64,000 nt of DNA from positions 587,487 through 651,486 of the forward strand of contig NZ_AZSU01000002.1 in NCBI RefSeq assembly GCF_000511955.1, in the 5' to 3' direction. The stretch is from [Clostridium] ultunense DSM 10521 (GTDB lineage: Bacteria > Bacillota > Clostridia > Tissierellales > Tepidimicrobiaceae). Numbering within the stretch: the first letter of the stretch is position 1; each line of letters starts with the position of its first letter. The translations under genes were made by a program, and so were the position numbers. Of this stretch, positions 8,377 through 40,591 are shown one piece after another. The notes under the pieces were generated by a model, which was given only the letters and a program-made list of their open reading frames with translations, had not been told where the DNA came from and did no database searches.

Positions 8377-8437
8377 ATTATTATTTTGACATAATCAAAA
8401 GATAATTATGAGATGACATTATCAAAAGATAATAACA

Positions 8438-8484: not shown

Positions 8485-8547
8485 TAATTGGTCAATTTAT
8501 GTGAATTAATGTATTTTTTATACTGGCAATAAAGAGAGGTGAAAGCA

Positions 8548-8748: not shown

Positions 8749-8764
8749 TCATTGTTTAAAACCA

Positions 8765-8806
8765 AATAGGTTAGTTGCCTATACAGCATCTAACCTTTAT
8801 TTTTAT
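8765..8806 (+). terminator. Terminator of rpmE
   Basis: AGGTTAG pairs with CTAACCT around a 15-base loop, extended by A-T pairs and followed by TTTATTTTTATTT. Confidence 0.75.
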
Positions 8807-8823
8807 TTAAGATGATTTAAACA

Positions 8824-8965
8824 ATGGAGAATTGACAAGGGACAATGAACAATTTTAAATAACTGTCATTCTGAGGCGAAGGCCATAGGCACACTCATTG
8901 AATTAAGCTAAGGAAGCCGAAGAATCTAAGACCCTAAATAATTGTGCATTGTGAATTGAAGAAAA
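8824..8965. repeat. Intergenic repeat region with GACAATT-type units and a CATTCTGAG unit
   Basis: Contains AATGGAGAATTGAC, GGGACAATGAACAATT and AATTGTGCATTGTGAATTG, variants of a unit also present at about 39190, 49966, 51256 and 56899. In the middle lies CTGTCATTCTGAG followed 53 bases on by GAAGAATCT, which recalls a short interspersed sequence found between genes of many bacteria. No reading frame is supported. Confidence 0.55.
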
Positions 8966-8979
8966 AGGATGTTAAAAAA

Positions 8980-11317: not shown

Positions 11318-11331
11318 GGTAGGTGGAATTT

Positions 11332-11871: not shown

Positions 11872-11914
11872 TTCTTTATAATATAGTACATTTATGCTAT
11901 TCTAAACTAATGGA

Positions 11915-11945
11915 TTGGATTTTTTAGCATTTTTCATGGTATAAT
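11915..11945 (+). promoter_or_regulatory. Promoter of prfA with extended -10
   Basis: TGGTATAAT at 11937-11945 is an extended -10 box. A TTGGAT lies 19 bases upstream, a suboptimal spacing. It would free prfA from the transporter genes before it. Confidence 0.6.
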
Positions 11946-12017
11946 ATATATGGACTATTAATTTGATTATAAAATTTATATCTATAAATTAAGAAGAGTT
12001 TGGAAAGGAGGTATAAT

Positions 12018-13085: not shown

Positions 13086-13091
13086 TATAAG

Positions 13092-13124
13092 AACTCGGAT
13101 AGAAAATTCTATCCGAGTTTTCTA
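13092..13124 (+). terminator. Terminator of prfA
   Basis: AACTCGGATAGA pairs perfectly with TCTATCCGAGTT around a short loop, followed by TTTCT. Confidence 0.85.
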
Positions 13125-13173
13125 TGTTATAATATATGAAAAATGAAATATGGCTAAAGGGGGAAATCAATAT

Positions 13174-14793
13174 ATGAAATTTAATTTTGATCCGTTGATC
13201 TATCATTATCCATCTAGAAGGAATGTAATCTATGGTAAAAAGGGAATGGTTGCTACTGGAAATCCATTGGCAGCAAATGCTGGATTGGAAATATTGAAAA
13301 AAGGTGGCAATGCCATAGATGCTGCTATTGCAACAGCTGCAGCTTTAACGGTAGTGGAACCTACTGCCAATGGAATAGGTGGAGATGCTTTTGCATTAGT
13401 TTGGTCAAGGGGAAAACTTCATGGCCTTAATGCTAGTGGACCTTCTCCTAAAAAGATAAGTATAGATGCTTTAAAAGAAAGGGGATTAGATGGAATTCCT
13501 ACAACTGGAGTAATACCAGTAAATGTGCCAGGTGCTCCTGCAGCTTGGGCTGAGTTATGGAAAAAATTTGGCTCAGCATTGGAATTTAAGGAACTATTAA
13601 AACCTGCTATTTCCTATGCAAAAGAAGGATTCATTATCCAACCTGGTGTCGGTAGTGTATGGGAAAAATCCTTCTATAAATATTCCAAAGTATTAAAGAA
13701 GGATAAGGCTATTCAAGGATGGTTTGACACCTTTGCACCAGAAGGCAAATTAATGAAAGCTGGAGATTTGCTCTGTTTAGAGCATCATGGGAATACATTA
13801 GAAGAAATAGGGGATACCCTTTCTGAAAGCATATATAGAGGGGAATTGGCGGAAAAAATAGCTAATTTCTTTAAAGAAAATGGCGGATTTTTAGAGTTAT
13901 CCGATTTAGAAGAATACTATCCAGAATGGGTAGAACCAATTTCCATCGATTATAAAGGTTATGATATTTATCAATTACCTCCAAATGGACATGGGATTAC
14001 GGTTTTAATGGCATTGAATATATTAAAACAATTAGAACTGGGAGAGATGAATTCCTTTAACAGTACCCATTACCAAATAGAAGCTCTTAAATTAGCCTTT
14101 GTAGATGTACAGAAATATGTAGCAGATCCTAGGGCTATGAAAGTTACCGTGGATGAACTTTTATCAATGGAGTATGCAAAGAATAGAGCTAAATTGATTA
14201 ATCATAAGGCGCTAATGCCTGAAGTTGGTAAACCATCCCAAAGTGGTACTGTTTATTTAGCCACTGCAGATCAATACGGAAATATGGTTTCTTTCATTCA
14301 AAGCAACTATATGGGATTTGGCTCAGGTATAGTTATTCCAAATACGGGAATAGCGATGCATAATAGAGGTTGTAATTTTAATTTAGATCCGGAATCAGCT
14401 AACTGTTTGGAAGGAGGTAAAAAATCCTACCATACCATAATACCAGGATTCTTAATGAGAGATGGAAAGCCTGTAGGCCCTTTCGGGGTAATGGGAGGAT
14501 TTATGCAACCCCAAGGCCATTTACAAGTGTTAATAAATACCATAGAGTATAAATTAAATCCTCAGGATGCTCTAGATAGGCCTAGATGGCAATGGACTGG
14601 AGATAGGACTATAGAAATTGAACAGTCCTTAGACAATAATCTTGCCTTACAATTAGAAAGGGCAGGTCATGATATAGTAGTAAAGGCAGATAGTACGGGT
14701 TTTGGTAGGGGAGAAATTATTTGGAGAGATGATAATGGAGTTCTATGCGGCGCCTGTGAACCTAGAACCGACGGATACGTAGCCGTTTGGTAG
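13174..14793 (+). CDS. Gamma-glutamyltransferase family Ntn-hydrolase
   Basis: 539 residues. The family opening MVATGNPLAANAGLEILKKG, the GNAIDAAIATAAALTVVEP segment and GGDAFALVW are present. The self-cleavage and nucleophile threonine should be near residue 358 in GTVYLATADQYGN, placed seven residues before the conserved Asp as in Escherichia coli Ggt. No signal peptide is visible, so the enzyme is probably cytosolic, which is unusual for glutathione-degrading Ggt. Substrate may be gamma-glutamyl compounds or another amide; oxamate amidohydrolase belongs to the same fold. ATG 13174 follows AAAGGGGG. Monocistronic, converging on the ZIP gene with one base between the stop codons. Confidence 0.88.
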   Translation: MKFNFDPLIYHYPSRRNVIYGKKGMVATGNPLAANAGLEILKKGGNAIDAAIATAAALTVVEPTANGIGGDAFALVWSRGKLHGLNASGPSPKKISIDALKERGLDGIPTTGVIPVNVPGAPAAWAELWKKFGSALEFKELLKPAISYAKEGFIIQPGVGSVWEKSFYKYSKVLKKDKAIQGWFDTFAPEGKLMKAGDLLCLEHHGNTLEEIGDTLSESIYRGELAEKIANFFKENGGFLELSDLEEYYPEWVEPISIDYKGYDIYQLPPNGHGITVLMALNILKQLELGEMNSFNSTHYQIEALKLAFVDVQKYVADPRAMKVTVDELLSMEYAKNRAKLINHKALMPEVGKPSQSGTVYLATADQYGNMVSFIQSNYMGFGSGIVIPNTGIAMHNRGCNFNLDPESANCLEGGKKSYHTIIPGFLMRDGKPVGPFGVMGGFMQPQGHLQVLINTIEYKLNPQDALDRPRWQWTGDRTIEIEQSLDNNLALQLERAGHDIVVKADSTGFGRGEIIWRDDNGVLCGACEPRTDGYVAVW

Positions 14794-24533: not shown

Positions 24534-24573
24534 AAAGCGAGCTAAGATTTTATTATCTTAACTCGCTTTTTTT
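24534..24573 (+). terminator. Terminator of upp
   Basis: AAAGCGAGCTAAGAT pairs with ATCTTAACTCGCTTT with one mismatch, followed by TTTTTTT. Confidence 0.88.
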
Positions 24574-24646: not shown

Positions 24647-24680
24647 ATATGTTTATAAAGCAAACATATGTCAGTATAAT
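24647..24680 (+). promoter_or_regulatory. Promoter of the IclR operon with a dyad, likely autoregulatory operator
   Basis: ATATGTTT (24647-24654) and AAACATAT (24662-24669) form a perfect dyad with a 7-base spacer, covering the -35 position of TATAAT at 24675-24680. The regulator starts 26 bases further on. IclR proteins usually bind such dyads at their own promoters. Confidence 0.6.
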
Positions 24681-24705
24681 GAACAAACATAGATGGAGGG
24701 ATTAA

Positions 24706-25461
24706 ATGTTAGTTGGAAATACATCTATTGACAAGGCGTATATGATCTTAGAAAGATTAGCTAAAAAGCCTTATGAAATGTCTGCATTAGAATTGGGACA
24801 GGTAACAGGATTAAACAGGAGTACAGTTCACAGGATTTTAAATATTTTAATAGATAATACTATGGTGGTTCAAAACCCAACTACAAAAAAATATTCTATA
24901 GGCCCTGGTTCTTATAGAATAGGTTCTGCATTTTTGAACAAACAACCTAATATTGGGGATATATCCGGTGAATTAGAAAAATTAGCCGCTAAGACTAGAC
25001 AATCCATTGGATATGCAATTCTAATCGAGGATAAGATATTAAGTATTTTTGAGGTAGAGAGTTACCAGCCTGTGCAAATAGGATATAAGGTTGGAGCTTA
25101 TTATCCCATACATTGTGGCGCCTATGGCAAATGTATTATGGCCTACTACGAACCCTATGAAAAATTGAAGGAGATTGTATACTCAACTAATCTAAAGAAA
25201 AATGCTCCTAATACCACTACTGATCCAGAAAAATTATTAAAAGAATACGAAAAGGTAAGAGAACAAGGATATGCAATATCCGATGAGGAAAACATGAAAG
25301 GACTGGTTGGTATAGGGGTACCAGTTAGGAATTATAACAATAAAGTTGTGGCATGTGTTGCAGCTAAATATATAAAAGGAAATGTAGATGAAAAAGAACA
25401 ACAATCTATAATACACCAGCTTAAACTTACTTCAGATAAAATAGGTAAACTAACGATTTAA
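24706..25461 (+). CDS. IclR-family transcriptional regulator
   Basis: 251 residues. Winged helix at about 8-70 (ALELGQVTGLNRSTVHRILN), then the IclR effector domain (SIGYAILIEDKILSIFEVES, HCGAYGKCIMAYY, YAISDEENMKGLVGIGVPV). It heads seven genes in the same direction ending at 33449, so it most likely senses a product of this catabolic operon. RBS GATGGAGGG. A dyad lies in its promoter. Ligand not predictable from sequence. Confidence 0.93.
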   Translation: MLVGNTSIDKAYMILERLAKKPYEMSALELGQVTGLNRSTVHRILNILIDNTMVVQNPTTKKYSIGPGSYRIGSAFLNKQPNIGDISGELEKLAAKTRQSIGYAILIEDKILSIFEVESYQPVQIGYKVGAYYPIHCGAYGKCIMAYYEPYEKLKEIVYSTNLKKNAPNTTTDPEKLLKEYEKVREQGYAISDEENMKGLVGIGVPVRNYNNKVVACVAAKYIKGNVDEKEQQSIIHQLKLTSDKIGKLTI

Positions 25462-25473
25462 GGAGGGGATATC

Positions 25474-25494
25474 ATGAGACAAAAAGGCGGATAA
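25474..25494 (+). other. Six-codon ORF (MRQKGG) behind a strong ribosome binding site
   Basis: AAGGAGGGG is followed at four bases by ATG and six codons to TAA. It could be a leader peptide coupled to the hairpin just downstream, or a relic of a lost gene start. No homology can be claimed for so short a frame. Confidence 0.3.
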
Positions 25495-25499
25495 AAAAG

Positions 25500-25534
25500 A
25501 GACCATCAATTAACCATAGTTAAATTGACGGTCT
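25500..25534 (+). terminator. Hairpin between the IclR gene and the transporter
   Basis: AGACCATCAATT-AAC pairs with GTTAAATTGACGGTCT with one mismatch and one bulge. The T tract is poor (TTAAAAA), so it may be a weak terminator that sets transporter level rather than a full stop. Confidence 0.5.
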
Positions 25535-25608
25535 TAAAAACTAATCCATAATAATGTTATACCTAGAAAAAAGAAAAATCAAGTCATAAATGATTAGGAG
25601 GGGTTTAT

Positions 25609-27030
25609 TTGACTAACCAAGATAATCAAATAAAAGAAAAGAAAAGATTTAAAGTTCCACATACTTTTGTGATCATATTCTATATTATAATATTGGCTAC
25701 AATTTTAACTTATTTAGTGCCAGCCGGTATATATGATAGGGTAGAAGATCCAAATACAGGCAGAACAATAGTAGATGTAGATTCCTTTAAGTACGTTGAA
25801 AGAACGCCAGTGAATCCATGGGGAATGGTTAAAGCAATACCAAAGGGAATGGTAGATGCTGCAAGTATTATTTTCTTTATATTTATCCTTGGTGGTGCAT
25901 TTGAAATGGTTCAATCTACTGGTGCAATAGATGCAATAGTTGTGAAATTTATTAACAAGCTAAAAAACAAGGAAAAACTAGTCATTCCACTGTTGATGTT
26001 CTTGTTTTCAGTTTTAGGATTTACCATTGGTGCCTCTGAAGAAATGATAGCATTTGTGCCAATAACAATAATGATAGCAAGAGGATTTGGATTTGATAAT
26101 ATCGTAGGGGTAGCAATAGCTTCTACAGGAGCAGCTATTGGATTTGCAGGAGGAATGTTAAACCCATTCACTACGGGTGTAGCCCAGGGCATTGCACAAC
26201 TTCCTCTTTATTCAGGAGCTGTGTTTAGAACAGTTGGCTATGTAATATTTTATATAATAGCTGTTTGGTATGTTATGAGATATGCATCTAAAATAAAAGC
26301 TGACCCTAATAAAAGCGTGTTACATGGTGTAAAGACTGGTGACGAAGTAGGAGAGTCAGATGAATTAAAGGAAATAAAGCTTACAAACAGGCATAAAGGC
26401 GTATTGGTAGTATTTTTAATAGGATTAATAATTATGATATATGGAGTAATGGAATATGGTTGGTATATTAATGAAATATCCGCTATATTTTTAGCTATTG
26501 GTATAGTATCCATTTTTGTTGGTGGTAAGGGTACAGATGATGCAGCTATTTCATTCATAAAAGGGGCTAAAGATATTACTATGGGGGCATTAGTAGTTGG
26601 ACTTGCAAGAACAATTTTAATAGTTATGCAGGAAGGACAAATAATGGACTCCATAATATATTCAATGGCAGGTATGTTGGAAGCTTTACCACGACAAATT
26701 ACTGCCGTAGGTATGTTTATAATAAATTCAGTTATTAACTTCTTTATACCTTCTGGAAGTGGACAAGCCTCAACTGTAATGCCTATAATGACCCCATTAG
26801 CTGATGTATTGGGAATCACTCGCCAAACTGCAGCTTTAACTGTTACCTATGGAGATGCATTCTCAAATCAGATAATCCCAACGTCTGGCGCTTTGCTTGG
26901 AGTTCTGGCAGTAGGTAAAGTTCCTTATGACCGTTGGCTAAAATATAATTGGAAATTGGTACTATATTGGACAATAGCTGGATCTATTTTGGTGGCTATA
27001 GCTTCTACGATCAACTTAGGACCATTTTAA
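25609..27030 (+). CDS. YfcC-family (DcuC superfamily) carrier, probable amino acid or peptide transporter
   Basis: 473 residues, about 11-12 membrane segments with a paired layout. The opening KKRFKVPHTFVIIFYIIILA and VPAGIYDRVEDPNTGRTIVD are typical of YfcC. TIGASEEMIAFVPITIMIA and the second-half PSGSGQASTVMPIMTPLADV contain the helix breaks expected at the substrate site. Family members are described or predicted to move basic amino acids, N-acyl amino acids or dicarboxylates. In this operon it should import the compound that the downstream hydrolases and racemase handle. TTG 25609 follows AGGAGGGG at five bases. Confidence 0.9.
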   Translation: MTNQDNQIKEKKRFKVPHTFVIIFYIIILATILTYLVPAGIYDRVEDPNTGRTIVDVDSFKYVERTPVNPWGMVKAIPKGMVDAASIIFFIFILGGAFEMVQSTGAIDAIVVKFINKLKNKEKLVIPLLMFLFSVLGFTIGASEEMIAFVPITIMIARGFGFDNIVGVAIASTGAAIGFAGGMLNPFTTGVAQGIAQLPLYSGAVFRTVGYVIFYIIAVWYVMRYASKIKADPNKSVLHGVKTGDEVGESDELKEIKLTNRHKGVLVVFLIGLIIMIYGVMEYGWYINEISAIFLAIGIVSIFVGGKGTDDAAISFIKGAKDITMGALVVGLARTILIVMQEGQIMDSIIYSMAGMLEALPRQITAVGMFIINSVINFFIPSGSGQASTVMPIMTPLADVLGITRQTAALTVTYGDAFSNQIIPTSGALLGVLAVGKVPYDRWLKYNWKLVLYWTIAGSILVAIASTINLGPF

Positions 27031-27065
27031 ACATATGGATATTATCTGTTGCTGGGAGGATTACA

Positions 27066-28256
27066 ATGATAGATTTTGATAAATATTATGACCAAAAGGA
27101 ATTAATAAAACTTACTCAGGATTTAATAAAGATACCTAGCCATAAAGATGTACCAAATAGAGAAAAAGAAGTTGTAGATTTTATATATAGATTTTGTAAG
27201 GAAAATGAACTAGAAGTAGAATTACAAGATGTAGATGGGGCAAGAAAAAATGTATTAGTGTACTTAAGAGGAACAGGCAATGGTAAAACCTTAATGTTTA
27301 ATGGGCACACTGATACGGTACCACCTTATAATATGACTATAGACCCTTTTAAAGCTGAGGTAAAGGATGGTTACATCTGGGGTAGAGGAGCTTCAGATAT
27401 GAAAGGACCTATAGCCTCTATGTTAATTTCCATGCTTGCTATCAAGCGTTCTGGGATTAAATTAAAAGGAGATATTATATTTGCAGGAGTTCTAGGAGAG
27501 GAAGAACAAAGTGAAGGCACTGAGATGTTAGTAAAATCCGGCATTAAAGCTGATGGTTGTATTGTAGGGGAACCTTCTAATTACGAATATGCCATAGGGC
27601 ATAGGGGATTGGAATGGATAGAGATCAAAGTTAAGGGAAAGGCTGCCCATGGAGGAGTACCTAATCTAGGTATAAATGCAATTTCAAAAGCAGCCAAACT
27701 AATTTTGAAAATAGAAGAGGAAATATATCCGAAATTAAAGGAAAGATTTAATGAATATATGGGACCTTCCGTTATGAACTTTGGAAGAATTGAGGGGGGA
27801 AGTCAACCTAGTACTGTTGCAGATTGGTGTTCAATTATATTAGATAGAAGATATATCCCTGGTGAAGATGTAGAGTCTGTTTTTAGAGAATATCAGGATG
27901 TAATTGACGCCCTTAAAGAGGAAGACCCAGATTTTGATGCAGAATTGATTAGAATGGAAGAGAATTTTTTAACATTAGATCATCTGTATCTAATGACCGA
28001 CCCAAAAGACCCCATAGTTTTATCTACTAAAAATGCAATCAGGAAGGTCACTGGAAGGGAACCAGAGATTACAAGGAGAAGAGGTTGGACAGATGCTGCC
28101 CTTTTATCTAATTTTGCTAAAATTCCAACGGTAGTTACAGGACCTGGGAATATAGCATATTCACATACTAAAGATGAAAGAGTTGAAATAAAACATTTGA
28201 TAGATTATGTAGATGTATATGGGAAAATAGCTATGGAGTTTTGTGGAGTTGAATAG
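27066..28256 (+). CDS. M20-family deacetylase/dipeptidase (ArgE/DapE type)
   Basis: 396 residues, dizinc hydrolase. Metal and catalytic motifs: MFNGHTDTVPPYN (His and catalytic Asp), WGRGASDMKGP (bridging Asp), GEEEQSEG (catalytic Glu and metal Glu), GEPSNYEY, and a final H in AYSHTKDER. The dimerisation domain begins at HRGLEWIEIKVKGKAAHGG. Members remove N-acyl groups from ornithine, diaminopimelate or succinyl amino acids. With an ornithine-racemase-like gene downstream, N-acylornithine or a similar substrate is a reasonable guess. ATG 27066 is five to six bases after GGGAGGA; a longer frame overlapping the transporter is rejected. Confidence 0.9.
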   Translation: MIDFDKYYDQKELIKLTQDLIKIPSHKDVPNREKEVVDFIYRFCKENELEVELQDVDGARKNVLVYLRGTGNGKTLMFNGHTDTVPPYNMTIDPFKAEVKDGYIWGRGASDMKGPIASMLISMLAIKRSGIKLKGDIIFAGVLGEEEQSEGTEMLVKSGIKADGCIVGEPSNYEYAIGHRGLEWIEIKVKGKAAHGGVPNLGINAISKAAKLILKIEEEIYPKLKERFNEYMGPSVMNFGRIEGGSQPSTVADWCSIILDRRYIPGEDVESVFREYQDVIDALKEEDPDFDAELIRMEENFLTLDHLYLMTDPKDPIVLSTKNAIRKVTGREPEITRRRGWTDAALLSNFAKIPTVVTGPGNIAYSHTKDERVEIKHLIDYVDVYGKIAMEFCGVE

Positions 28257-28259
28257 TAC

Positions 28260-28289
28260 GAATAGGCAGAGTTCTTACTCTGCCTATTC
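28260..28289 (+). other. Perfect 12-bp intercistronic hairpin
   Basis: GAATAGGCAGAG pairs with CTCTGCCTATTC around a 6-base loop, just after the M20 gene stop. No T tract follows, so mRNA stabilisation or processing is more likely than termination. Confidence 0.7.
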
Positions 28290-28308
28290 ATTAGAAGGGG
28301 AGACTGAC

Positions 28309-29838
28309 ATGAAGGAAAGAATACTAGATGAAAGTTTAATTGGAAAAATATTAACGGCTGAAGAGGCTGCTGAAACAATAATAGATGGGATGACTGTTGC
28401 AACTAGTGGTTTTACTCCTTCTGGTTATCCAAAAGCTGTTCCATTAGCTTTAGCAAAGAGAGTGAGGAATACCCAAGAGAAGATGGAAATCACTTTGATA
28501 GCAGGAGCATCCGTTGGAGACGAATTAGATGGAGAACTTTCAAGAGAGGGAATTATTAAGAGGAGAATTCCTTATCAAACCAATGAATCTATTAGGAGTA
28601 AAATTAACCGGGGAGAAATACAGTTTATTGATCAGCATTTAAGCCATGTAGCTCAAAATATCAACTATAATTTTATTAATAAAATAGATGTGGCAATTAT
28701 TGAAGCTATTAAAATAACAGAAGAAGGAAATATAATTCCTTCCACTTCCATCGGAATATCTCCTACTATAGTAGATAAGGCAAAAAATATAATAATTGAA
28801 GTGAACATGAGCCAACCTTTAGAATTGGAAGGAATACACGATATATATACTATAAAAAATCCGCCTTTTAGAAAACCTATCCCAATAATTAACTGTTTTG
28901 ATAGAATAGGCAGTAATTATATACCTTTAAATAAGGAAAAGATATCAGGAATTGTTATTACAGACATTAAGGATAATGTAAGACCTCTAGCACCGGTTAA
29001 TGACAATAACAAGATAATGGCAGGGATTTTAATGGAATTCTTAGACTTTGAGATTAGGAAAGGGAGAATTCCCAAAGAATTATTACCTCTCCAATCAGGT
29101 GTTGGTTCAGTTGCTAATGCAGTACTAAAGGGGTTTTTAAATTCTAAATATGATAATTTACAGTTTTACACCGAAGTAATCCAAGATTCCATATTGGATC
29201 TAGTGGAAGCGGGAAGAGTATGTTGTGCTTCAGGAACAGCTATTACACCTTCTCCTGAAAAGCTAAAGGAGATATTACTCAGCATGAAAAGGTATAGGGA
29301 TAAGATAATATTAAGACCTCAAGAGATTAGCAATCATCCTGAAATAATTAGAAGGTTAGGAGTTATAGCTATGAATACAGCTATTGAGGTGGATATATAT
29401 GGAAATGTTAATTCTACCAATGTATTAGGAGGAAATATGATGAATGGAATAGGGGGTTCTGGAGACTTTGCAAGAAATGCTTATCTTTCAATATTCTTTA
29501 CAGAATCCATTAGAAAGGATGCCCATATATCCACAATAGTTCCTTTAGTATCCCATCATGATCACACAGAACATGATGTAGATGTAGTAATAACCGAGAG
29601 AGGCATAGCAGACTTAAGGGGATTGAGCCCAAAGGAAAGGGCTAAAAGAATAATAGAAAATTGTGCTCATCCCGACTATAAGGACCAATTACGAGAATAT
29701 TACAATAGAGCTAGCGGGAGAAGGGGCCACATACCTATTTTGCTAAACGAAGCCTTTTCTTGGCATTGCAGATTTGAAAGCGTTGGCACTATGAAGAATG
29801 ATACTGGGGGGAAGGAATATGAGTTATCCAGCAATTGA
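28309..29838 (+). CDS. Acetyl-CoA hydrolase/CoA-transferase family protein (Cat1/Ach1 type)
   Basis: 509 residues, fused alpha and beta halves of a family I CoA-transferase. Near the start: MTVATSGFTPSGYPKAVPLA; the catalytic glutamate should be in FYTEVIQDSILDLVEAG, by alignment with the S-E-V-I-S-D motif of succinyl-CoA:acetate transferases; GSGGSGDF-like glycine loop reads GGNMMNGIGGSGDFAR, and TERGIADLRGLSPKERA is the usual C-terminal signature. It would move CoA between acetyl-CoA and an acid released by the operon. ATG 28309 follows AAGGGGAG. Its last 20 bases overlap the racemase start. The donor/acceptor pair cannot be told. Confidence 0.88.
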   Translation: MKERILDESLIGKILTAEEAAETIIDGMTVATSGFTPSGYPKAVPLALAKRVRNTQEKMEITLIAGASVGDELDGELSREGIIKRRIPYQTNESIRSKINRGEIQFIDQHLSHVAQNINYNFINKIDVAIIEAIKITEEGNIIPSTSIGISPTIVDKAKNIIIEVNMSQPLELEGIHDIYTIKNPPFRKPIPIINCFDRIGSNYIPLNKEKISGIVITDIKDNVRPLAPVNDNNKIMAGILMEFLDFEIRKGRIPKELLPLQSGVGSVANAVLKGFLNSKYDNLQFYTEVIQDSILDLVEAGRVCCASGTAITPSPEKLKEILLSMKRYRDKIILRPQEISNHPEIIRRLGVIAMNTAIEVDIYGNVNSTNVLGGNMMNGIGGSGDFARNAYLSIFFTESIRKDAHISTIVPLVSHHDHTEHDVDVVITERGIADLRGLSPKERAKRIIENCAHPDYKDQLREYYNRASGRRGHIPILLNEAFSWHCRFESVGTMKNDTGGKEYELSSN

Positions 29839-30889
29839 AATAAACTTGTCTAAGATAAGGGAAAACACAAAGGTGATAACAAATTTATGTAAAGATTATG
29901 GAATTGATATAGTAGGAGTTACTAAGGTTTCAAATGGTTCCATTGAAATAGCCCAAGCTATGATCCAGGGAGGAATAAAAATAATTGGAGATTCTAGATT
30001 AGGTAACCTAAAAAATTATGAGGATCTATCTGTAAAAAAGATGCTTGTAAGATTACCCATGATGAGTGAAGTAGGGGAAGTCGTTAGATTATGCCATATT
30101 TCACTTAATTCAGAAATAGAAACTATAAAGGCTCTTTCAATAGAAGCCCAAAAAGCTGGGAAAATCCATGAAATTATATTAATGGTAGATGTAGGAGATT
30201 TGCGAGAAGGCATATTCGACGAAGAGGAAATAGTGGAAACTGTTAAAGAAATATTGAAACTAAAAGGCATTAGATTAATCGGTTTGGGTACAAACTTAAC
30301 TTGTTTTGGTGCAATAATTCCTTCTAAGGAGAACTTAGGCAAATTGGTAACCATTAGAGATAATATAAACAAGGAGTTTAATATAGATTTGGAGGTAATA
30401 TCTGGAGGAAATTCAAGTTCCCTTTGTCTAATAATGAATGGAGAAATGCCAAAGGGAATAAACCAACTACGGCTGGGAACATCTTTATTGCTAGGGTTAA
30501 TTGAAGTAATTTGGACAAGGATACCAAATACCCATGTAGATGCTTTTAAATTGATTGCTGAAATTATTGAAGTAAAAGAAAAACCATCAAAACCCATAGG
30601 AGAAATTGCTATGGACGCCTTTAGAAATGTTCCTACCTTTGAGGATAAGGGACAGATGAAAAGAGCTATATGTGCCGTAGGTAGACAGGATTGTGAACCG
30701 GATTTTATGATTCCAGAGGATGAGAGGATTAGTATATTGGGTTGTAGTAGTGACCATCTGATATTGGATATTACCCACTGCCATAAGGATTATGAAGTTG
30801 GAGATAAGGTGACTTTTATTCTAGACTATATAGGTATCTTAAGATGTATGACATCAGCTCATGTAAGGAAAATATATGTAAACCAATAA
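29819..30889 (+). CDS. orr: Alanine/ornithine racemase-family PLP enzyme, probably ornithine racemase
   Basis: 356 residues, fold-type III. The PLP lysine is in VGVTKVSNGSIEIAQAM near residue 37, phosphate-binding SGGNSSSLCLI lies near residue 196 and the C-terminal beta domain ends DYIGILRCMTSAHVRKIYV. The protein matches the Orr type of clostridial amino-acid fermenters better than classical Alr: it lacks the Alr tyrosine box and has the extended HVDAFKLIAEIIEVKEKPSKP. Ornithine racemase feeds L-ornithine into the D-ornithine aminomutase path. ATG 29819 follows GGGGGAAGG and lies inside the preceding gene. Gene identity as a racemase is sure; ornithine is inference. Confidence 0.78.
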   Translation: MSYPAIEINLSKIRENTKVITNLCKDYGIDIVGVTKVSNGSIEIAQAMIQGGIKIIGDSRLGNLKNYEDLSVKKMLVRLPMMSEVGEVVRLCHISLNSEIETIKALSIEAQKAGKIHEIILMVDVGDLREGIFDEEEIVETVKEILKLKGIRLIGLGTNLTCFGAIIPSKENLGKLVTIRDNINKEFNIDLEVISGGNSSSLCLIMNGEMPKGINQLRLGTSLLLGLIEVIWTRIPNTHVDAFKLIAEIIEVKEKPSKPIGEIAMDAFRNVPTFEDKGQMKRAICAVGRQDCEPDFMIPEDERISILGCSSDHLILDITHCHKDYEVGDKVTFILDYIGILRCMTSAHVRKIYVNQ

Positions 30890-30908
30890 ACAGGAAGAAG
30901 GTGAAAAC

Positions 30909-32279
30909 ATGTATGATCTAGCCATTAGAGAAGGAATGATTATTGACTTCGAAAACAATAGTATATTTGTTGGGGATATAGGGATTAAAGGCGGAAAAAT
31001 TGTAGATGTGGGAAGATGCAATGGAAATGCTAAAAAAGTTATAAATGCAGAGGGGTTAATAGTATCACCAGGGTTTGTTGATATTCATATGCATGAGGAA
31101 GTGATAGGAAATAGTGTGGATGGAGATGATTACGACATTGGAAATAACATGTTGCGAATGGGAGTTACAACAGCTGTAGGTGGGAACTGTGGCAATAATA
31201 GACAAGACATAAAGGAGTTTTTAGATTTCGTAGACCATAATGGAGCACCTATCAATTATCTAACCTTTATTGGACATAATTTTTTAAGAAATAGTTTAGC
31301 TATAGACCCCTATAGAAAAGCTACAGAAATTGAAATACAGAAGATGAAGGATATGGTTAAAGAATATATTGAAAGCGATAATGCAATAGGCATATCCTTC
31401 GGTATAGAATATTCTCCAGGGATTACATTTCGAGAAATGGTAGGTTTATGTAATGATATAGAAGACAATATATTATTATCTGCCCATTATAGGGGAGATG
31501 CAGATAAATCCATAGATTCAATAAAAGAGATGATTGAAATATCTAGGGTTACCAAGAAGCCTATGCAAATATCCCATATTGGAAGTTGTTCTGCCATGGG
31601 CTATATGGACGAATCTTTAGATTTAATTGAAGTTGCCATAGGAGAAGGTTTAGATATAGCTGCTGATTGTTATCCTTATAATGCATTTAGCACCCGAATT
31701 GGTAGCGCTGTATTTGATGAAGGTTGTTTTGAAACTTGGAACAAATCCTATGATAGCATACTCTTAACAGAAGAACCTTATAAAGGGATTTACTGTGATG
31801 AAGAGTTATTCTACAAAGTGCGAAAAGAGTATCCTGATATGTATGCTGTTGCCTTTGTAATGAATGAAGAGGAGGTAATAGACGCCTTAAAAGCATCTTT
31901 TGTATTTGTAGCTAGTGATGGTATGTTGAATAAAGGACAAGGCCATCCAAGGGCTGCGGGAACTTTTCCGAAGGTGCTGGGGAAATATGTAAGGGATGAT
32001 AACCGATTGGATTTAACAGATGCTTTAAAGAAGATGACTTTATTACCTGCCCAGAGATTAGGACTGAGGAATAAAGGAGATATTCAAGTAGGTATGGATG
32101 GGGATATAGTTATATTTAATCCGGCTACTATTATAGATCAGGCTACCTTTACAGAACCAACTAAGCCACCAATAGGAATTGAGTACGTTATAATAGATGG
32201 AAAAATCGCCTTGGAAAGAAATAATGTAGTAAATAACCGTCTTGGAAAATCCATAAGAAGAAATCAATTATCATTATAA
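30909..32279 (+). CDS. N-acyl-D-amino-acid deacylase (amidohydrolase superfamily)
   Basis: 456 residues. Metal-site order of D-aminoacylases: GFVDIHMHEEV (H-x-H), AHYRGDADKS, QISHIGSCSAMGYM, AADCYPYNAF, and VFVASDGMLNKGQGHPRAAG (catalytic Asp followed by the H-P-R-x-x-G-T-F signature). The small beta domain is split between residues 1-60 and the last 60. It frees D-amino acids from N-acyl forms. Placed between the racemase and a second M20 enzyme, it fits a path in which acylated D- and L-amino acids are unmasked and interconverted. RBS GGAAGAAGGTG. Start is clear. Confidence 0.92.
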   Translation: MYDLAIREGMIIDFENNSIFVGDIGIKGGKIVDVGRCNGNAKKVINAEGLIVSPGFVDIHMHEEVIGNSVDGDDYDIGNNMLRMGVTTAVGGNCGNNRQDIKEFLDFVDHNGAPINYLTFIGHNFLRNSLAIDPYRKATEIEIQKMKDMVKEYIESDNAIGISFGIEYSPGITFREMVGLCNDIEDNILLSAHYRGDADKSIDSIKEMIEISRVTKKPMQISHIGSCSAMGYMDESLDLIEVAIGEGLDIAADCYPYNAFSTRIGSAVFDEGCFETWNKSYDSILLTEEPYKGIYCDEELFYKVRKEYPDMYAVAFVMNEEEVIDALKASFVFVASDGMLNKGQGHPRAAGTFPKVLGKYVRDDNRLDLTDALKKMTLLPAQRLGLRNKGDIQVGMDGDIVIFNPATIIDQATFTEPTKPPIGIEYVIIDGKIALERNNVVNNRLGKSIRRNQLSL

Positions 32280-32291
32280 GAGGTGATGTGG

Positions 32292-33449
32292 ATGAAAGAT
32301 AGGATACAAAGATTGATTGAAGAAGTAGAAAATGAACTTATAAATTTAAGTGAATATATCTATAATAATCCTGAATTAGGTTATGAAGAGTATAAATCTT
32401 CAAGGGCTCATATAGATTTACTAAAAAAATATAATTTTATTGTAGAAGAAAAATATATAGGAATAGATACTGCCTTTAAAGCCGAGTATAAAGGCCAAAA
32501 AGAAGGCCCTACTATTGCATATCTTACAGAATACGATGCATTACCAGGGATTGGCCATGGATGTGGTCACAATCTGCTTGGAACTGTAAGCACGGGGGCA
32601 GGAATAGTATTAAGCAAATTGATAGATGAGTTAGGAGGGAGGGTATTAGTATTTGGTACACCAGCAGAGGAGACCAGTGGAGCTAAAGTTATAATGGCAG
32701 AAAAGGGCTCCTTTAATGACGTAGATGTGGCTATGATGGCCCATCCGAATGATACTTTTTGTGAAAGTGGTAAATCCCTAGCATTAGAACCTATTCAGTT
32801 TACCTTTAGAGGGAAAACCGCCCATGCTGCTTCTGCCCCCGAGAAAGGGATCAACGCATTAGACGGAGTTTTACTGACCTTTAACGGAGTAAATGCATTG
32901 AGAGAACATATATTACCAACTGCTAGAATCCATGGAGTTATAATAGAAGGTGGAAAGGCAGCAAATATAGTCCCAGATTTGGCAATAGCTCAATTCTATA
33001 TAAGGGCTACTACAAAGGAATACCTTATAGAATTAAGTGAGAAAGTAAAAAATTGTGCTAAGGCAGCAAGTTTGGCTACGGGTACTAAGTTGGAAATTAC
33101 AAATTATGAGGCTTCCTATGATAATTTGGTTACAAATCAAGTACTATCCAGTAGATTTACCCAAAATTTAAAAATATTTGGAGTAGAAAACTGTGAGAAA
33201 CCTAGAGATACTTTTGGGTCCTTAGACATGGGGAATGTTAGCCATGTCTGTCCTGCTATTCATCCCTATTTTGCTATAACAGAAGGTAAAACTATAGCAG
33301 CCCATACAACGGAATTTGCCGAAGCAACTCTTACAGATATAGCCTATAAAAATATGGCCAAAACAATAGGGGCTTTAGTGTTAACTGGTATTGATGTAAT
33401 TAGAGATAAACAGCTTCTAAAGGATATAAAGGATGAGTTTAACAAATGA
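32292..33449 (+). CDS. M20-family amidohydrolase (AbgB/ACY1L2-like)
   Basis: 385 residues. Unlike the operon's first M20 enzyme it carries TEYDALPGIGHGCGHNLLGT, the signature of the aminobenzoyl-glutamate hydrolase/ACY1L2 branch, then GTPAEETSGAKVIMAEKG and TFRGKTAHAASAPEKGINAL for the lid domain. This branch cleaves aminoacyl amides, including dipeptides with unusual basic residues and beta-alanyl-lysine or ornithine compounds in the animal enzyme. That would agree with an ornithine theme. ATG 32292 is five bases after AAGAGGTGA. The last gene of the operon; a terminator overlaps its stop. Confidence 0.88.
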   Translation: MKDRIQRLIEEVENELINLSEYIYNNPELGYEEYKSSRAHIDLLKKYNFIVEEKYIGIDTAFKAEYKGQKEGPTIAYLTEYDALPGIGHGCGHNLLGTVSTGAGIVLSKLIDELGGRVLVFGTPAEETSGAKVIMAEKGSFNDVDVAMMAHPNDTFCESGKSLALEPIQFTFRGKTAHAASAPEKGINALDGVLLTFNGVNALREHILPTARIHGVIIEGGKAANIVPDLAIAQFYIRATTKEYLIELSEKVKNCAKAASLATGTKLEITNYEASYDNLVTNQVLSSRFTQNLKIFGVENCEKPRDTFGSLDMGNVSHVCPAIHPYFAITEGKTIAAHTTEFAEATLTDIAYKNMAKTIGALVLTGIDVIRDKQLLKDIKDEFNK

Positions 33450-33484
33450 GTCGGTAGCTACAACTATCGACTCATTTCTTTTAT
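33444..33484 (+). terminator. Terminator of the IclR catabolic operon
   Basis: ATGAGTCGGTAG pairs with CTATCGACTCAT with a single G-T wobble, followed by TTTCTTTTAT. It overlaps the last codons of the M20 gene. Confidence 0.82.
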
Positions 33485-34699: not shown

Positions 34700-35819
34700 A
34701 GTTATGACAGTATTTGGAACAAGGCCAGAAGGGATAAAAATGGCCCCTATTATAAAGGTTATGGAAAATGCTTCTGAAATAGATAATACTATATGTATAA
34801 CTGCTCAGCATAGAGAAATGTTAGATCAGGTACTTAACCTTTTTCAGATAGAACCAGATTATGATTTAAATATATTCAAACCAGGGCAAAGCCTTACGGA
34901 GATTACTATGAAGGCTTTAGAAGGCTTAGAGAAGGTAATATTGGAGGTAAAACCAGATGTATTATTAGTCCAAGGAGATACTAGCACTGTATTTGCTGGA
35001 GCTTTAGCTGCCTTTTATCAAAAGGTGAAGATAGGCCATGTAGAGGCAGGTCTAAGGTCAGGAAACCTATATTCTCCTTATCCCGAAGAGGCAAATAGAA
35101 AGCTAACCGGTATACTTACAGATTTTCACTTTGCGCCAACTGAGACTAATAAGGACAACCTTCTAAGAGAAGGGTATTCTATAGAAAAGATATTTATTAC
35201 AGGAAATACAGTCATTGATGCTCTACAATATTCAGTTAAAGAAGATTATAGTTTTCAAATACCTTTGTTAGACAATATTGATTATAAAGATAAAAGAATA
35301 ATACTTTTAACCTCCCATAGAAGGGAAAATTTAGGTAAGCCTATGGAGAATATATTTTCTGCCATTAATCAAATAGCTTTAGAATATGAAGATATAGAAG
35401 TAGTATTCCCAATCCATTTAAATCCTAAAGTTAGGCAAATAGCTAATAAGATATTTAATGGGAATAGACGAGTCCATTTGATAGAACCACTAGACTATGA
35501 GCCTTTTACCAATCTAATGGCTAGATCCTATCTAGTAGTTACCGATTCAGGAGGACTCCAAGAAGAAGCTCCAAGCTTAGGAAAACCAGTATTGGTGGTA
35601 AGGGAAGAAACGGAGAGACCAGAAGGGATAGAGGCAGGTACTGCTAAATTAGTAGGAACCAATTATGATAATATATTGAAGGAAATAGATATTTTACTAT
35701 CTAATCAAAAAGAATATGAGAAGATGGCCAACGCAGTAAATCCTTACGGCGATGGTAGGGCTTCTGAAAGGATTGTAGATATTATCCTTAAACATGGATT
35801 TTCTAAAAAACAGGAGTGA
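34686..35819 (+). CDS. mnaA: UDP-GlcNAc 2-epimerase, non-hydrolysing
   Basis: Interconverts UDP-GlcNAc and UDP-ManNAc for linkage units of wall polymers. 377 residues, GT-B-like fold: [18 protein letters not shown] at the start, [49 protein letters not shown], and the C-terminal [14 protein letters not shown] (here TDSGG) and REETERPEG. These are the UDP and allosteric site residues. I use ATG 34686, six bases after AGAAGAGGG; the ATG at 34680 follows that site directly. Overlaps tagO and is followed after 4 bases by the sigma-54 regulator. Confidence 0.95.
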
Positions 35820-35823
35820 TTTT

Positions 35824-37542
35824 ATGAAATTTTCAGTCTATGATCCGGATTTTTCAAGCTATTTATTAGATTCCCTTCTAGATGGTATTCTTATTGTGGA
35901 TATGCGTGAGAAGGTCTCCTATGGAAATACTGCTATTTTAAGGATGTTAGATATAAGGGAAGAAGAGGTTAATTCTCTCCCATTTCCAAATTTTATTAAA
36001 GATGAAAAGTTAAGAGAGTTTTTTAGTTTAAATGGGGAAATGCGAGAAAAGGAATTAGGCTTAAATAGTCATCATCTATTGCTAAAATATATTCCTTATA
36101 CAGTTAATGGGAAACTCCAAAAACATATTTTCATAGTTCGAGATATTACAGATATTAAGGATTCCCAAAGCCAGTTAATAGAAGAGAAGATGAGTTTAGA
36201 TATGATAGAGGACCTTCTCCAATATGCCTATGAAGGTTTTGCCTTAGTAGATAGTGAAGGTAAAATAGTAAAGTGGAATTATGAAGAATTGCTAGGTATA
36301 AAGGAAGAAGATGCTATAGGTAAACCCGTAAGTGAAGTCATAGAAAATACTCGATTAGATATAGTTGTTAAAACTGGAGAAAAAGAAATAAGACATATTC
36401 AGAGAATACAAGGTCATGATATGGTGGCTAATAGGGTTCCTATAATTCGAGGTGGAAAAATAATAGGAGCGGTAGGGGCTGTATTGTTTAGGGATGCCAG
36501 CGATATAAGGGAAATGGCTAAGGAACTTATAGAGTTGGAAAATAAGATTAATGAATACAAAGGTGAGATTGAAAGATTACAGGGTAGTAAATATACTTTC
36601 GATAGTATAATAACCCAAAACCCTAAGATGGAATATTTAAAAAAAATAGGGAGAACAGCTGCTCAATCTAATTCTACAGTATTAATACTAGGAGAATCTG
36701 GTACAGGAAAGGAATTATTTGCCCAAGCCATTCATAAAGCTAGTTATAGAAAATTTGGGCCCTTTATTCCCATCAACTGCGCTGCTATACCCAGAGAACT
36801 GTTAGAATCTGAATTATTCGGCTATGAATCGGGAGCCTTTACTGGAGCAAAACGGGAAGGAAAACCAGGGAAATTTGAACTAGCTAACGGAGGTACAATA
36901 TTTTTAGATGAAATTGGAGATATGCCTCTTGAAATGCAGGTAAAGCTTTTAAGGGTATTAGAAGAAAAGGAATTCGAAAGGGTAGGAGGAAATGAAAAAA
37001 AATTCCTAGATGCTAGGATTATTGCTGCCACTAATGAAAGAATTGAAGAAGCAGTAGAAAAGGGAAGGTTTAGAGAGGACCTCTACTATAGGTTGAATGT
37101 AATAAATATAGATATTCCTCCTCTTCGGGAGAGGATAGAAGATATTCCTTTATTAGTCGAACATCTATTGGAGTATTTAACAAAAGAATTAAACACTGAG
37201 GAAAAGATAATAGATAAAGATACTATAGACATATTAAAGAAATACCATTGGCCAGGGAATGTAAGAGAACTTAGAAATGTGTTGGAGAGAGCTATAAATC
37301 TATCTAATCAACAGATTATATTACCTAAACATTTGCCAGAAAGGTTAATAAAGAATAAAATGTACACTGATAGTAAAGAAAAAACATACCCTTTAAGGGA
37401 TGTGGTAGCTGAAGCAGAAAAGGAAGCAATAGTCAACGCTATAACTAAGGCTAAGGGCAATAAAACTTTAGCCGCAGAAAATTTAGGAATTCATAGAACT
37501 GCTTTGTATAAAAAAATTGATAAATATGGATTAAGCCTTTAA
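35824..37542 (+). CDS. Sigma-54-dependent activator with PAS sensors (AtoC/RocR-like)
   Basis: 572 residues: two PAS regions at about 10-110 ([19 protein letters not shown]) and 130-225 ([18 protein letters not shown]), coiled linker, AAA+ domain at about 265-490 with Walker A GESGTGKE, the sigma-54 contact loop GAFTGAK and [13 protein letters not shown], arginine finger region [11 protein letters not shown], and a Fis helix-turn-helix at the end ([20 protein letters not shown]). No receiver domain, so a small ligand is probably sensed by PAS. It lies just upstream of a sigma-54 promoter that drives thiolase and CoA-transferase, its likely target. RBS CAGGAGTG. Confidence 0.94.
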
Positions 37543-37572
37543 CTGTAGCAAAAAGTATACAAAACAAAATGG

Positions 37573-37594
37573 ATTGTAGACTTATGGCTACAAT
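37573..37594 (+). promoter_or_regulatory. Probable upstream activator site of the sigma-54 regulator
   Basis: ATTGTAG (37573-37579) and CTACAAT (37588-37594) form a perfect 7-bp dyad with an 8-base spacer. It lies about 215 bases before the sigma-54 promoter, a usual distance for an enhancer site. A related half, TGTAGC, lies at about 37546. Confidence 0.55.
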
Positions 37595-37665
37595 ATTAAA
37601 ATGGATTTTGATTAAAATTATCCAGAGGGAATGTTGAAAAATAGGGATTTGTTAAAAAATAGGCA

Positions 37666-37707
37666 AAAGATGAGTGTAGAGCATTTTCTACACTCATCTT
37701 TATTTTT
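37666..37707 (+). terminator. Terminator of the sigma-54 activator gene
   Basis: AAAGATGAGTGTAG pairs perfectly with CTACACTCATCTTT (37688-37701), followed by ATTTTTC. Confidence 0.88.
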
Positions 37708-37807
37708 CTAAAGTTTAAGATATTTTAATGGAATTAGGTATCAGCTAGGGGCATTGTAATTTACAGACTTGTAGGGCTTTAGAAAAATAATTTTTACACA
37801 AAACATG

Positions 37808-37825
37808 TTGGCACGAAACTTGCAA
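37808..37825 (+). promoter_or_regulatory. Sigma-54 (-24/-12) promoter of the thiolase/CoA-transferase operon
   Basis: TTGGCACGAAACTTGCAA matches the sigma-54 consensus TTGGCACN5TTGC at the invariant GG and GC with correct spacing. It lies 60 bases before the thiolase start. Confidence 0.93.
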
Positions 37826-37884
37826 TTATATAGTACTGGATAATGAGTTAAATAATATAAAAAATATAATAGGAGGTAAGATAT

Positions 37885-39066
37885 ATGAGAGAAGTTGTTA
37901 TTGTGTCTGGAGTTAGGACAGCTATAGGAACTTTTGGTGGCAGCTTTAAAGATGTATCTGCAGTGGCATTAGGTACTGTTGCAGTTAAAGAAGCCATGAA
38001 GAGGGCCAATATTGCACCAGATATGGTAGATGAAGTTATATTTGGAAACGTATTGCAAGCGGGATTAGGCCAAAATGTAGCAAGACAGGTTTCTATCCAC
38101 TCTGGAATTCCTATGGAGGTGCCTTCTTATACTGTAAATAAGGTTTGTGGTTCAGGTCTAAAGACTGTAGCTTTAGCGGCACAAGCTATAATGGCAGGAG
38201 AAGCAGATATCATACTGGCAGGAGGTACTGAGAATATGTCTCAAGCTCCTTACCTATTGAAGAAAGCTAGATGGGGACAAAGGATGGGAGATGGAGTAAT
38301 CGAAGACTATATGGTTAAGGATGGACTCTGGGATATATTCAATGATTACCATATGGGAATTACCGCGGAAAATATAGCAGAACAATGGAATTTATCTAGG
38401 GAAGAACAAGATCAATTTGCTCTTAATAGCCAATTGCGAGCAGAAAAGGCTATAAAGGATGGAAGGTTTAAAGATGAAATAGTTCCAGTAGAAGTTCCAC
38501 AAAGAAGAGGAGATCCAATAATTGTAGATACTGATGAGCATCCACGATTTGGTTCAACTATTGAAGGAATGGCTAAGTTAAGACCAGCTTTCAAAAAAGA
38601 TGGTACAGTAACAGCTGGGAATGCATCAGGAATTAATGATGGCGCAGCAGCCTTAGTCCTTATGTCTAAGGAAAAAGCAGAAGAACTAGGGATTAAACCT
38701 TTAGCTACTATTCTATCCTATGCTTCAGCAGGGGTAGATCCTAAGATAATGGGTACAGGTCCTATACCAGCAACAAAAAAGGCATTAGAAAAGGCTAAAA
38801 TAGGTGTAGAAGATTTAGACTTAGTGGAGGCAAATGAAGCCTTTGCAGCACAATCATTAGCTGTAGTAAAGGACTTAGGATTGGACCCAGAAAAGACAAA
38901 TGTGAATGGAGGAGCCATAGCCTTAGGACATCCAATTGGTGCTTCGGGAGCTAGAATTTTGGTTACTCTATTACATGAAATGGACAAAAGAGAAGCTAAA
39001 AACGGGCTGGCGACCTTATGTATAGGCGGCGGACAAGGAATAGCTTTAGTGGTTAGAAGAGACTAA
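37885..39066 (+). CDS. thl: Acetyl-CoA C-acetyltransferase (thiolase)
   Basis: Condenses two acetyl-CoA to acetoacetyl-CoA or cleaves it. 393 residues. Nucleophile Cys near residue 88 in [38 protein letters not shown] with the active His, and the second Cys in [13 protein letters not shown]. Driven by the sigma-54 promoter upstream and followed by the two CoA-transferase subunits, so the set can turn acetoacetate or butyrate into acetyl-CoA, or run the other way. RBS AGGAGGT. Confidence 0.96.
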
Positions 39067-39189
39067 ATAGTGAAATATATACCTTGCATTATTCGGAAAA
39101 TGAACAGGTAATAATTATGTAGCCACTATAGCGAACTAAATTGGTTATTGATAAAATGCAAGTTATTTGATAAAATTGTAACAAGGGTT

Positions 39190-39265
39190 TTAACAATGTG
39201 CAGTTGCTAGGCGACTAACAAGTCGCCTAGTAAGGTTAGTTCTAATTGTACATTGAATTAATTGG
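39190..39265. repeat. Intergenic repeat with GGCGAC-type hairpin
   Basis: CTAGGCGAC (39207-39215) pairs perfectly with GTCGCCTAG (39222-39230). It is bracketed by CAATGTGCA and TGTACATTG, which pair with one wobble. No T tract. It resembles the elements at 49966 and 51256 and may lower read-through to the CoA-transferase genes. Confidence 0.6.
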
Positions 39266-39275
39266 AGGTGTTTTT

Positions 39276-39932
39276 ATGGAGAAAGTAGTAACTATAGATG
39301 AAGCTGTTAGCCATATTAAAGATGGTATGACCATTATGGTTGGCGGATTCTTAAGCTGTGGTACCCCCCATAAGCTTGTGGATGCGCTAGTAAAAAAAGG
39401 TGTTAAAGATTTAACATTAATTTGTAATGATTCAGGCTTCGTCGATTCAGGAGTGGGAAAGCTAGTTGTAAATAAGCAGATTAAAAAATTAATAGCTTCC
39501 CATGTGGGAACTAACAAGGAAACGGGGAATCAAATGAATTCTGGCGAAATGGAGGTTGTTTTAGTACCTCAAGGAACTTTAGCAGAACAAATAAGAGCTG
39601 CTGGTGCTGGTCTTGGAGGCATATTGACTCCAACAGGCGTAGGAACGGTTGTAGAAGAAGGAAAAGAAAAGATAGAAATAGACGGAAAAGAATATCTATT
39701 AGAATTACCTTTAAAAGCGGATGTAGCACTATTGCTTGGACATACTGTAGATAAGGCTGGCAATGTAGTCTATTATGGCGCTACAAGAAACTTTAATACC
39801 CTTATGGCTACTGCTGCGGACACGGTAATCGTTGAAGCTGAAAACCTGGTAGAAGTAGGGGAAATAGATCAAAACCATGTTGTTACTCCTGGATTATTTA
39901 TTGATTATATTGCTGTTGGAGGTGACAAATAA
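39276..39932 (+). CDS. CoA-transferase subunit A (AtoD/CtfA type)
   Basis: 218 residues. Family I CoA-transferase alpha subunit: [38 protein letters not shown] and [20 protein letters not shown]. Works as a complex with the next gene, moving CoA between acetate or butyrate and acetoacetate. The stop overlaps the start of subunit B by one base (TAATG). ATG 39276 follows TTGGAGGTG; an upstream ATG at 39246 lies in repeat sequence. Substrate choice between acetoacetate and butyrate cannot be decided. Confidence 0.93.
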
Positions 39933-40591
39933 TGGATAGAGCTAAAATAAAAGAAATAATAGCTAAAAGGGTAGCTAAAGAATTAAAGGATGGAGATATA
40001 GTAAATTTAGGTATTGGACTACCTACTATGGTGGCTAACTATGTTCCAGAAGATATGAATGTTTTATTCCAGTCGGAAAACGGTTTCGTTGGATTAGGAC
40101 CTGCCCCTGCAGAAGGGGAAGAAGATGAATATATAGTTAACGCTGGAGGTCAACAAGTGACCATATTGCCCGGAGGAGCTTTCTTTGACTCTTCTATATC
40201 TTTTGGAATCATCCGCGGAGGTCATGTGGACGTAACGGTTTTAGGTGCCTTACAAGTAGATGAAGAAGGGAATTTAGCCAATTGGATGATACCAGGAAAG
40301 ATGGTACCAGGAATGGGTGGCGCCATGGACTTAGTAGTAGGAGCTAAAAAAGTAATTATTGCTATGGAGCATACGGTAAAAGGAAACCATAAAATACTTA
40401 AAAAATGCAACTTGCCTTTAACAGCTGCAAAAGAAGTAGATATGATAGTAACTGAAATGGGAGTAATGGAAATAACAGATGAGGGTATAGTATTAAAGGA
40501 AATCAATCCAGAGTTTACCGTAGACCAGGTTCAAGAAGCCACAGAAGCTAAATTGATAATAGCAGAAGATTTAGTTGAAATGGAAGTATAA
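39932..40591 (+). CDS. CoA-transferase subunit B (AtoA/CtfB type)
   Basis: 219 residues. The catalytic glutamate is in [13 protein letters not shown] near residue 51; [12 protein letters not shown] and [20 protein letters not shown] are further family motifs. Translationally coupled to subunit A. The operon ends with a strong terminator. Together with thiolase it fits sigma-54-driven use of short-chain acids, as in the ato system of other bacteria. Confidence 0.94.

Follow-up and report, generated by a model that had tools for sequence, protein, structure and literature searches.

What would a bacterium gain from placing a D-aminoacylase-like enzyme, an ornithine-racemase-like enzyme, two different M20 hydrolases, a carrier and a coenzyme A (CoA)-transferase behind a single regulator gene? 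The question is raised by a 64,000-nucleotide stretch of [Clostridium] ultunense DSM 10521 (contig NZ_AZSU01000002.1, forward-strand positions 587,487 to 651,486; the window, whose own numbering is used throughout), in which seven complete genes lie at positions 24706–33449 between upp and tagO/wecA, all on the + strand and co-oriented, as the initial annotation stated. In order, they encode an IclR-family regulator (24706–25461; PF09339 and PF01614 above cut-off, with an ATG start behind an AGGAG-type ribosome-binding site); a YfcC/DcuC-type carrier (25609–27030); M20a, of the ArgE/DapE deacylase/desuccinylase family (27066–28256); a CoA-transferase of the succinyl-CoA:acetate (YgfH/ScpC) class (28309–29838); Orr1, a pyridoxal 5′-phosphate (PLP) racemase of the ornithine racemase family (29819–30889); DAA, a D-aminoacylase-like subtype V amidohydrolase (30909–32279); and M20b, a hydrolase resembling HmrA and PM20D2, the latter also classed as an Xaa-Arg dipeptidase (32283–33449). 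The gaps from the second gene to the seventh are 35, 52, −20 (an overlap), 19 and 3 bp. The arrangement supports the view that the seven genes form one operon-like unit that is kept as a set, and we propose, with a probability of about one half, that it is a peripheral catabolic operon under local regulation that would feed ornithine-type amino acids to the ornithine (ora) fermentation pathway.

In this scheme the IclR protein, seated over the promoter as a tandem pair of dimers, would hold the operon off until a substrate-related ligand appears, as the position of its operator suggests, and the carrier would import arginine/ornithine-type amino acids that carry a short acyl or aminoacyl group as a block on the alpha-amino nitrogen. 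Judging from their families, DAA would free the D form and M20a the L form, while M20b would cut dipeptide-like Xaa-(basic amino acid) conjugates. Orr1 would interconvert the freed enantiomers and yield D-ornithine, the enantiomer taken by the B12-dependent ornithine 4,5-aminomutase of an ord-ortAB-oraSE-orr operon; that pathway is present in the genome, and its link to the window operon is what we infer. The CoA-transferase, whose class is assigned by curated models, may keep the released short acid (of the acetate/succinate/propionate class) as its CoA ester. It is highly probable that the genes represent a conserved means of scavenging N-blocked amino acids, D as well as L; the odds that an ornithine-type amino acid is the main product are roughly even, and ornithine specificity and the identity of the acyl group are the weakest steps of the scheme.

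Gene neighbourhoods argue for a shared function. In a survey of 199 genomes of the order Tissierellales, counting as a DAA orthologue any protein with at least 50% identity or a clear fragment, 37 genomes have one; two genomes of the same genus have none, and the distribution is therefore patchy. A neighbourhood search for all seven genes, which had been suggested as a check, found them together in three genomes (G011, G027 and G010), in order or partly rearranged, and six of the seven, with M20b absent, in a fourth (G090). In G142 a run of IclR-YfcC-M20a-CoA-transferase-DAA-M20b, with DAA interrupted, follows directly after the Orr of the ora operon, and in G121 five genes (IclR-YfcC-M20a-DAA-M20b) lie near the ora-operon Orr, with one 182-amino-acid open reading frame (ORF) intervening. 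Two genomes (G032 and G044) have a rearranged run of Orr-M20b-carbamoylase-IclR-M20-YfcC-DAA, other neighbourhoods hold smaller YfcC-DAA-M20 cores, and among 399 genomes of the phylum 12 have a deacylase at E≤1e-100, several of them beside YfcC and M20. Gene order and membership differ between genera, and the co-occurrence is far beyond chance. We note also that M20a is 75–83% identical in exactly those operons with an Orr at the locus, and that those without one have the 60–66% group. Relatives are found in other company as well: at L029 (5279–12161) a protein with an octopine-dehydrogenase domain and an M20 hydrolase lie upstream of YfcC-DAA-Orr, raising the possibility of opine use, and at four loci (L111, L114, L116 and L117) deacylase relatives adjoin a conserved pair of proteins of about 453 and 113 amino acids, mostly with oligopeptide ATP-binding-cassette transporter genes too.

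The regulation of the unit also appears to be conserved. A promoter-like sequence (24652–24680, + strand; −35 TTTATA and −10 TATAAT with a 17-bp spacer, 10/12 matches, a match to consensus only) is overlapped by a predicted tandem IclR-type operator (24650–24685, + strand) consisting of two 17-bp palindromes of the form TGTYN8RRACA, TGTTTATAAAGCAAACA and TGTCAGTATAATGAACA, 19 bp apart. The dyad that the initial annotation placed in the promoter (24647–24669) is real, but it belongs to this better-defined tandem element. The window operator scores 18/18, a score equalled by 0 of 1000 shuffles, and the element precedes 12 of the 12 orthologous IclR genes examined, the window's included, with scores of 15–18/18 in the other 11 (p 0.000–0.006); in a spacing scan over the upstream regions of orthologous IclR genes the mean pair score is 16.9/18 at 19 bp, compared with 13.0–14.3 elsewhere. 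Tandem sites 18–22 nucleotides apart are reported to be typical of IclR-family motifs (PMC8222616), and the window regulator fits this pattern with its helix-turn-helix and effector domains and the 19-bp register of the palindromes in 12 orthologues. Because the element covers the −35/−10 region, repression is its natural reading, and IclR would act here as a repressor. The window site is the only one with zero mismatches in the 3.2-Mb genome, and a search there for a regulon beyond the operon gave matches carrying two mismatches, at about the level of a reversed-pattern control. The tandem operator is absent upstream of the distant IclR genes (about 40% identical) tied to rearranged clusters at L033b, L036 and L052. 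A single palindrome, TGTTCAN5TGAACA, was also considered as the operator; it is weak in the window and the tandem model took its place.

The case for ornithine draws on a second locus of the same genome (G000:C3, L023), a full ord-ortA-ortB-oraS-oraE-reactivase-orr cluster, with gene names taken from sequence reading and BLAST matches between loci, which encodes the B12-dependent oxidative ornithine pathway established in C. difficile (PMC8803604). OraSE, ord and ortAB are absent from the window operon and present at this cluster, whose Orr is 56% identical to Orr1. Orr1 passes the curated ornithine-racemase model NF040742 (549 vs 480 bits) and has fold type III with an invariant PLP lysine, K36; a search of its sequence against solved structures gave no match, and its AlphaFold2 model (predicted local distance difference test score 93) has alanine racemases as its closest solved folds (template modelling score 0.80). 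Among 63 Orr proteins placed in a maximum-likelihood tree, Orr1 falls in one clade of 14 (support 100/98), none of which lies inside an ora operon: five are in the operon described here, five adjoin M20b, three are found at the upp-tagO locus alongside NhaC/ArcD-like antiporters, and one is solitary. The idea that Orr1 is a displaced ora-operon racemase was rejected, as the genome has both proteins and the tree separates them. OraE is present in 13 of the 13 genomes with a member of the Orr1 clade, and in 35/37 deacylase-positive genomes vs 66/162 others (p=5e-10); counted by genus, the figures are 16/17 vs 31/61 (p=0.001).

Orr-like proteins occur in several further settings. In three f13 genomes (L063, L064 and L065) the upp-tagO locus holds just Orr1 and two NhaC-like antiporters with weak similarity to ArcD, and not the seven-gene operon. 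In three genomes (L070, positions 6462–13260; L071; L076) an amino-acid cluster joins an Orr-like racemase to an NhaC-like antiporter, a protein resembling NAD kinase/AcoX, a glycine-dehydrogenase-like GcvPB, for which the model is passed, and a GcvPA-like protein; and in Streptococcus and others (L077, L126 and L017–L020) Orr-like racemases adjoin dimethylargininase/arginine-deiminase-like hydrolases and an amino-acid permease, and are perhaps racemases of arginine-derived amino acids.

The remaining enzymes are of classes that fit release of a blocked amino acid and activation of the freed acid. M20a passes the ArgE/DapE deacylase model TIGR01910 (289.8 bits against 217.6) and is DapE-like as well as ArgE-like. 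M20b matches HmrA and PM20D2 full-length (residues 5–387; structures 3ram and 7yh4, E 9e-80 and 4.7e-66), in a different operon context, and its metal-site motif HGCGHN aligns with HACGHN; PM20D2 has been identified as a beta-alanyl-lysine dipeptidase and is also active on ornithine derivatives. The CoA-transferase is above both curated succinate CoA-transferase cut-offs (TIGR03458, 742.5 against 658.7 bits; ScpC NF053853, 703.9 against 500). In DAA, which matches the structure 1rjp by sequence (1e-53), the metal-site and catalytic residues C94/H193/H223, H60/H62 and D337, together with R348, are conserved in 28 of 28 sequences. It shares with AfDam, the D-Glu deacylase BbDam and OngB (PMC12017989) its sequence family, the Cys/His/His zinc site, the catalytic Asp and a conserved Tyr and Arg. 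Characterised D-aminoacylases are reported to have a strictly conserved alpha-carboxylate set, Lys252/Tyr283/Ser289/Arg377, the lysine of which holds the substrate alpha-carboxylate in those three enzymes (PMC12017989); in DAA the counterparts Tyr255 and Arg348 are found in 28/28 sequences and Ser261 in 22/28. The specificity position of the known enzymes (Leu298/Arg295/Gln298) falls at about V268 of DAA, where the loop differs in being about two residues shorter and in having an acidic pair, D/E270-E/D271, that is conserved apart from single members with K, S or A; this hints weakly at a substrate with a basic side chain.

Several observations weigh against an ornithine-feeding operon. The alpha-carboxylate lysine is replaced by G or S in 28 of the 28 DAA relatives, and the substrate may thus be presented differently; for this reason we file DAA as D-aminoacylase-like and not as a member, and the outright name given to it earlier, which is borne out at the zinc site and catalytic Asp, was rejected. 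As a guess, Arg305, which is invariant among the relatives and not present in the aligned structures, might replace the missing lysine. In canonical Orr proteins positions 221 and 228 are acidic (30/30), a conservation pattern and not a published requirement, whereas the Orr1 clade has T at 221 and V/I (one Asp) at 228; relative to canonical and outlying Orr proteins the changes are E/D to T at 221, E/D to V/I at 228 and T/S to E at 229. Position 221 aligns, via the R218/G220 match, with Ile222 of BsAlr, a backbone phosphate contact, so that the change need not alter specificity, though it could; and because SpAlr has an Asp there, it is no proof of a new substrate. The carrier matches the DcuC superfamily PF03606 (354.7 bits, cut-off 23.1) and is classed by that alone, falling below the YfcC cut-off (NF008611, 347 vs 500 bits), and shared ancestry inflates the association with OraE. 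Lastly, many deacylase operons lack any Orr, and the core module is therefore not ornithine-specific everywhere. The order of events proposed by the initial annotation, with import, release and interconversion of both enantiomers and activation of the acid to CoA, fits the enzyme classes and is strained at the lost lysine of DAA and the two lost acidic residues of Orr1. Its suggestion of ornithine derivatives is in a similar position: ornithine as the freed amino acid is indirectly supported by the NF040742 result, the full ornithine pathway, the placement of the G121 and G142 operons and the family of M20b, and the Orr1 residue changes and the operons without Orr count against it.

These same observations give some substance to a broader alternative, which we consider somewhat unlikely: a general scavenging of D-amino-acid conjugates, such as N-acyl amino acids derived from peptidoglycan or diaminopimelate, with Orr1 shifted to lysine, arginine/citrulline or diamino acids and the ornithine pathway not the sink. 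The residue changes of the Orr1 clade adjoin the PLP phosphate loop, M20a has its DapE-like side, and most deacylase+YfcC(+M20) modules are without Orr. A deacylase with 43% identity, carried by a Cetobacterium somerae plasmid (L133, NZ_CP092521.1) near a Tn3 transposase, keeps company with alanine racemase, diaminopimelate decarboxylase (lysA), an M20 peptidase, a serine hydrolase and glutamate racemase (murI), so such relatives do occur in diaminopimelate-like contexts. However, two operons without an Orr of their own sit just after the ora-operon Orr, every genome with the Orr1 clade has OraE, Orr1 passes the NCBIfam ornithine-racemase cut-off, and M20b resembles a basic-amino-acid dipeptidase family. 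An earlier thought that a spore former might scavenge modified amino acids or peptidoglycan compounds in this way agrees with the presence of a spo0A gene, but no finding links the operon to either sporulation or peptidoglycan in particular.

A second alternative concerns the blocking group, which could be succinyl, with M20a a desuccinylase and the CoA-transferase returning succinate as succinyl-CoA to a methylmalonyl-CoA/propionate route. The CoA-transferase does pass succinate CoA-transferase models, the genome encodes methylmalonyl-CoA mutase, and in f19 genomes M20a-DAA-YfcC-CoA-transferase is followed by methylmalonyl-CoA mutase genes; but this adjacency was seen in just one genus, CoA-transferases of the class take several short acids, and the operon has no enolase-type N-succinylamino acid racemase, and we regard a succinyl-specific route as distinctly unlikely. 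That unrelated amino-acid enzymes lie together incidentally, with no common function, is hardly credible, for although order and membership vary between genera, the genes co-localise repeatedly, in differing orders and in many genera, and have a conserved tandem operator and tight intergenic spacing.

The ornithine-feeding operon that we favour has partial counterparts among known systems. AbgABT, for p-aminobenzoyl-glutamate utilisation, resembles it in combining M20 amidohydrolases with a related carrier that imports an N-acyl amino acid, but handles L-glutamate conjugates only and has no racemase or D-specific enzyme. In the streptococcal arginine deiminase system, arcDT pairs the arginine/ornithine antiporter ArcD, with homologues that bear the annotation C4-dicarboxylate anaerobic carrier (the Pfam family of the window's carrier), with the co-transcribed putative dipeptidase ArcT, thought to supply arginine from peptides (PMC4129364). 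We count this parallel in favour of our proposal, although arcDT is part of the deiminase pathway and has no D-aminoacylase, racemase, CoA-transferase or IclR. The orr-oraSE-ord-ortAB operon, as in C. difficile (PMC8803604), has an Orr and is the probable downstream pathway of the window operon, which has a different Orr paralogue and none of the other genes. No report of this gene combination was found, in line with the initial annotation, which knew of no named pathway with exactly this set, in a literature search that was not exhaustive and had most subscription journals outside it; the components are all known enzyme types, and the combination and the two subfamilies are apparently undescribed in the literature searched.

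If our reading is correct, the operon would be a route devoted to bringing blocked D- and L-amino acids into ornithine fermentation and would account for the two ornithine racemases in many Tissierellales. Functions open to test could then be assigned to three groups: an amidohydrolase subfamily, M20 proteins of the HmrA/PM20D2-like kind and carriers of the DcuC type. Other sources of ornithine deserve attention since its use by anaerobes is important in the gut, as for C. difficile (PMC8803604). Under a bolder version, which is unlikely, the pathway itself would be undescribed: amidohydrolases of a new subfamily, holding the carboxylate end unlike known D-aminoacylases, would open D-configured conjugates of basic amino acids that form a natural class not recognised before, and a neofunctionalised ornithine racemase would deliver them to B12-dependent fermentation.

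The limits of the unit given by the initial annotation, 24647–33484, coincide well with the real unit between upp and tagO/wecA because hairpins lie just before and after the genes. Upstream is a terminator-like hairpin after upp (24534–24569; a 15-pair stem, called on the − strand, with a T-run on the + side too) and at the operon end another (33444–33477, + strand; a 14-pair stem and T-run); both are supportive only, as shuffled sequence yields such hairpins no less often. The 147-bp IclR-YfcC gap, which is about 47 bp at L027, contains a window-specific insert (25462–25608) with a tiny ORF, MRQKGG, behind a good ribosome-binding site and then a hairpin with 12-bp arms (25500–25534). An Rfam search of the region, this hairpin included, gave no match, and the gap was rejected as a member of a repeat family, the genome giving just one weak partial second match. 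Just downstream of the operon, at 35794–40591, a PAS/sigma-54-type activator gene is followed by genes for a thiolase and two 3-oxoacid CoA-transferase subunits, which we read as a separate short-chain acid cluster.

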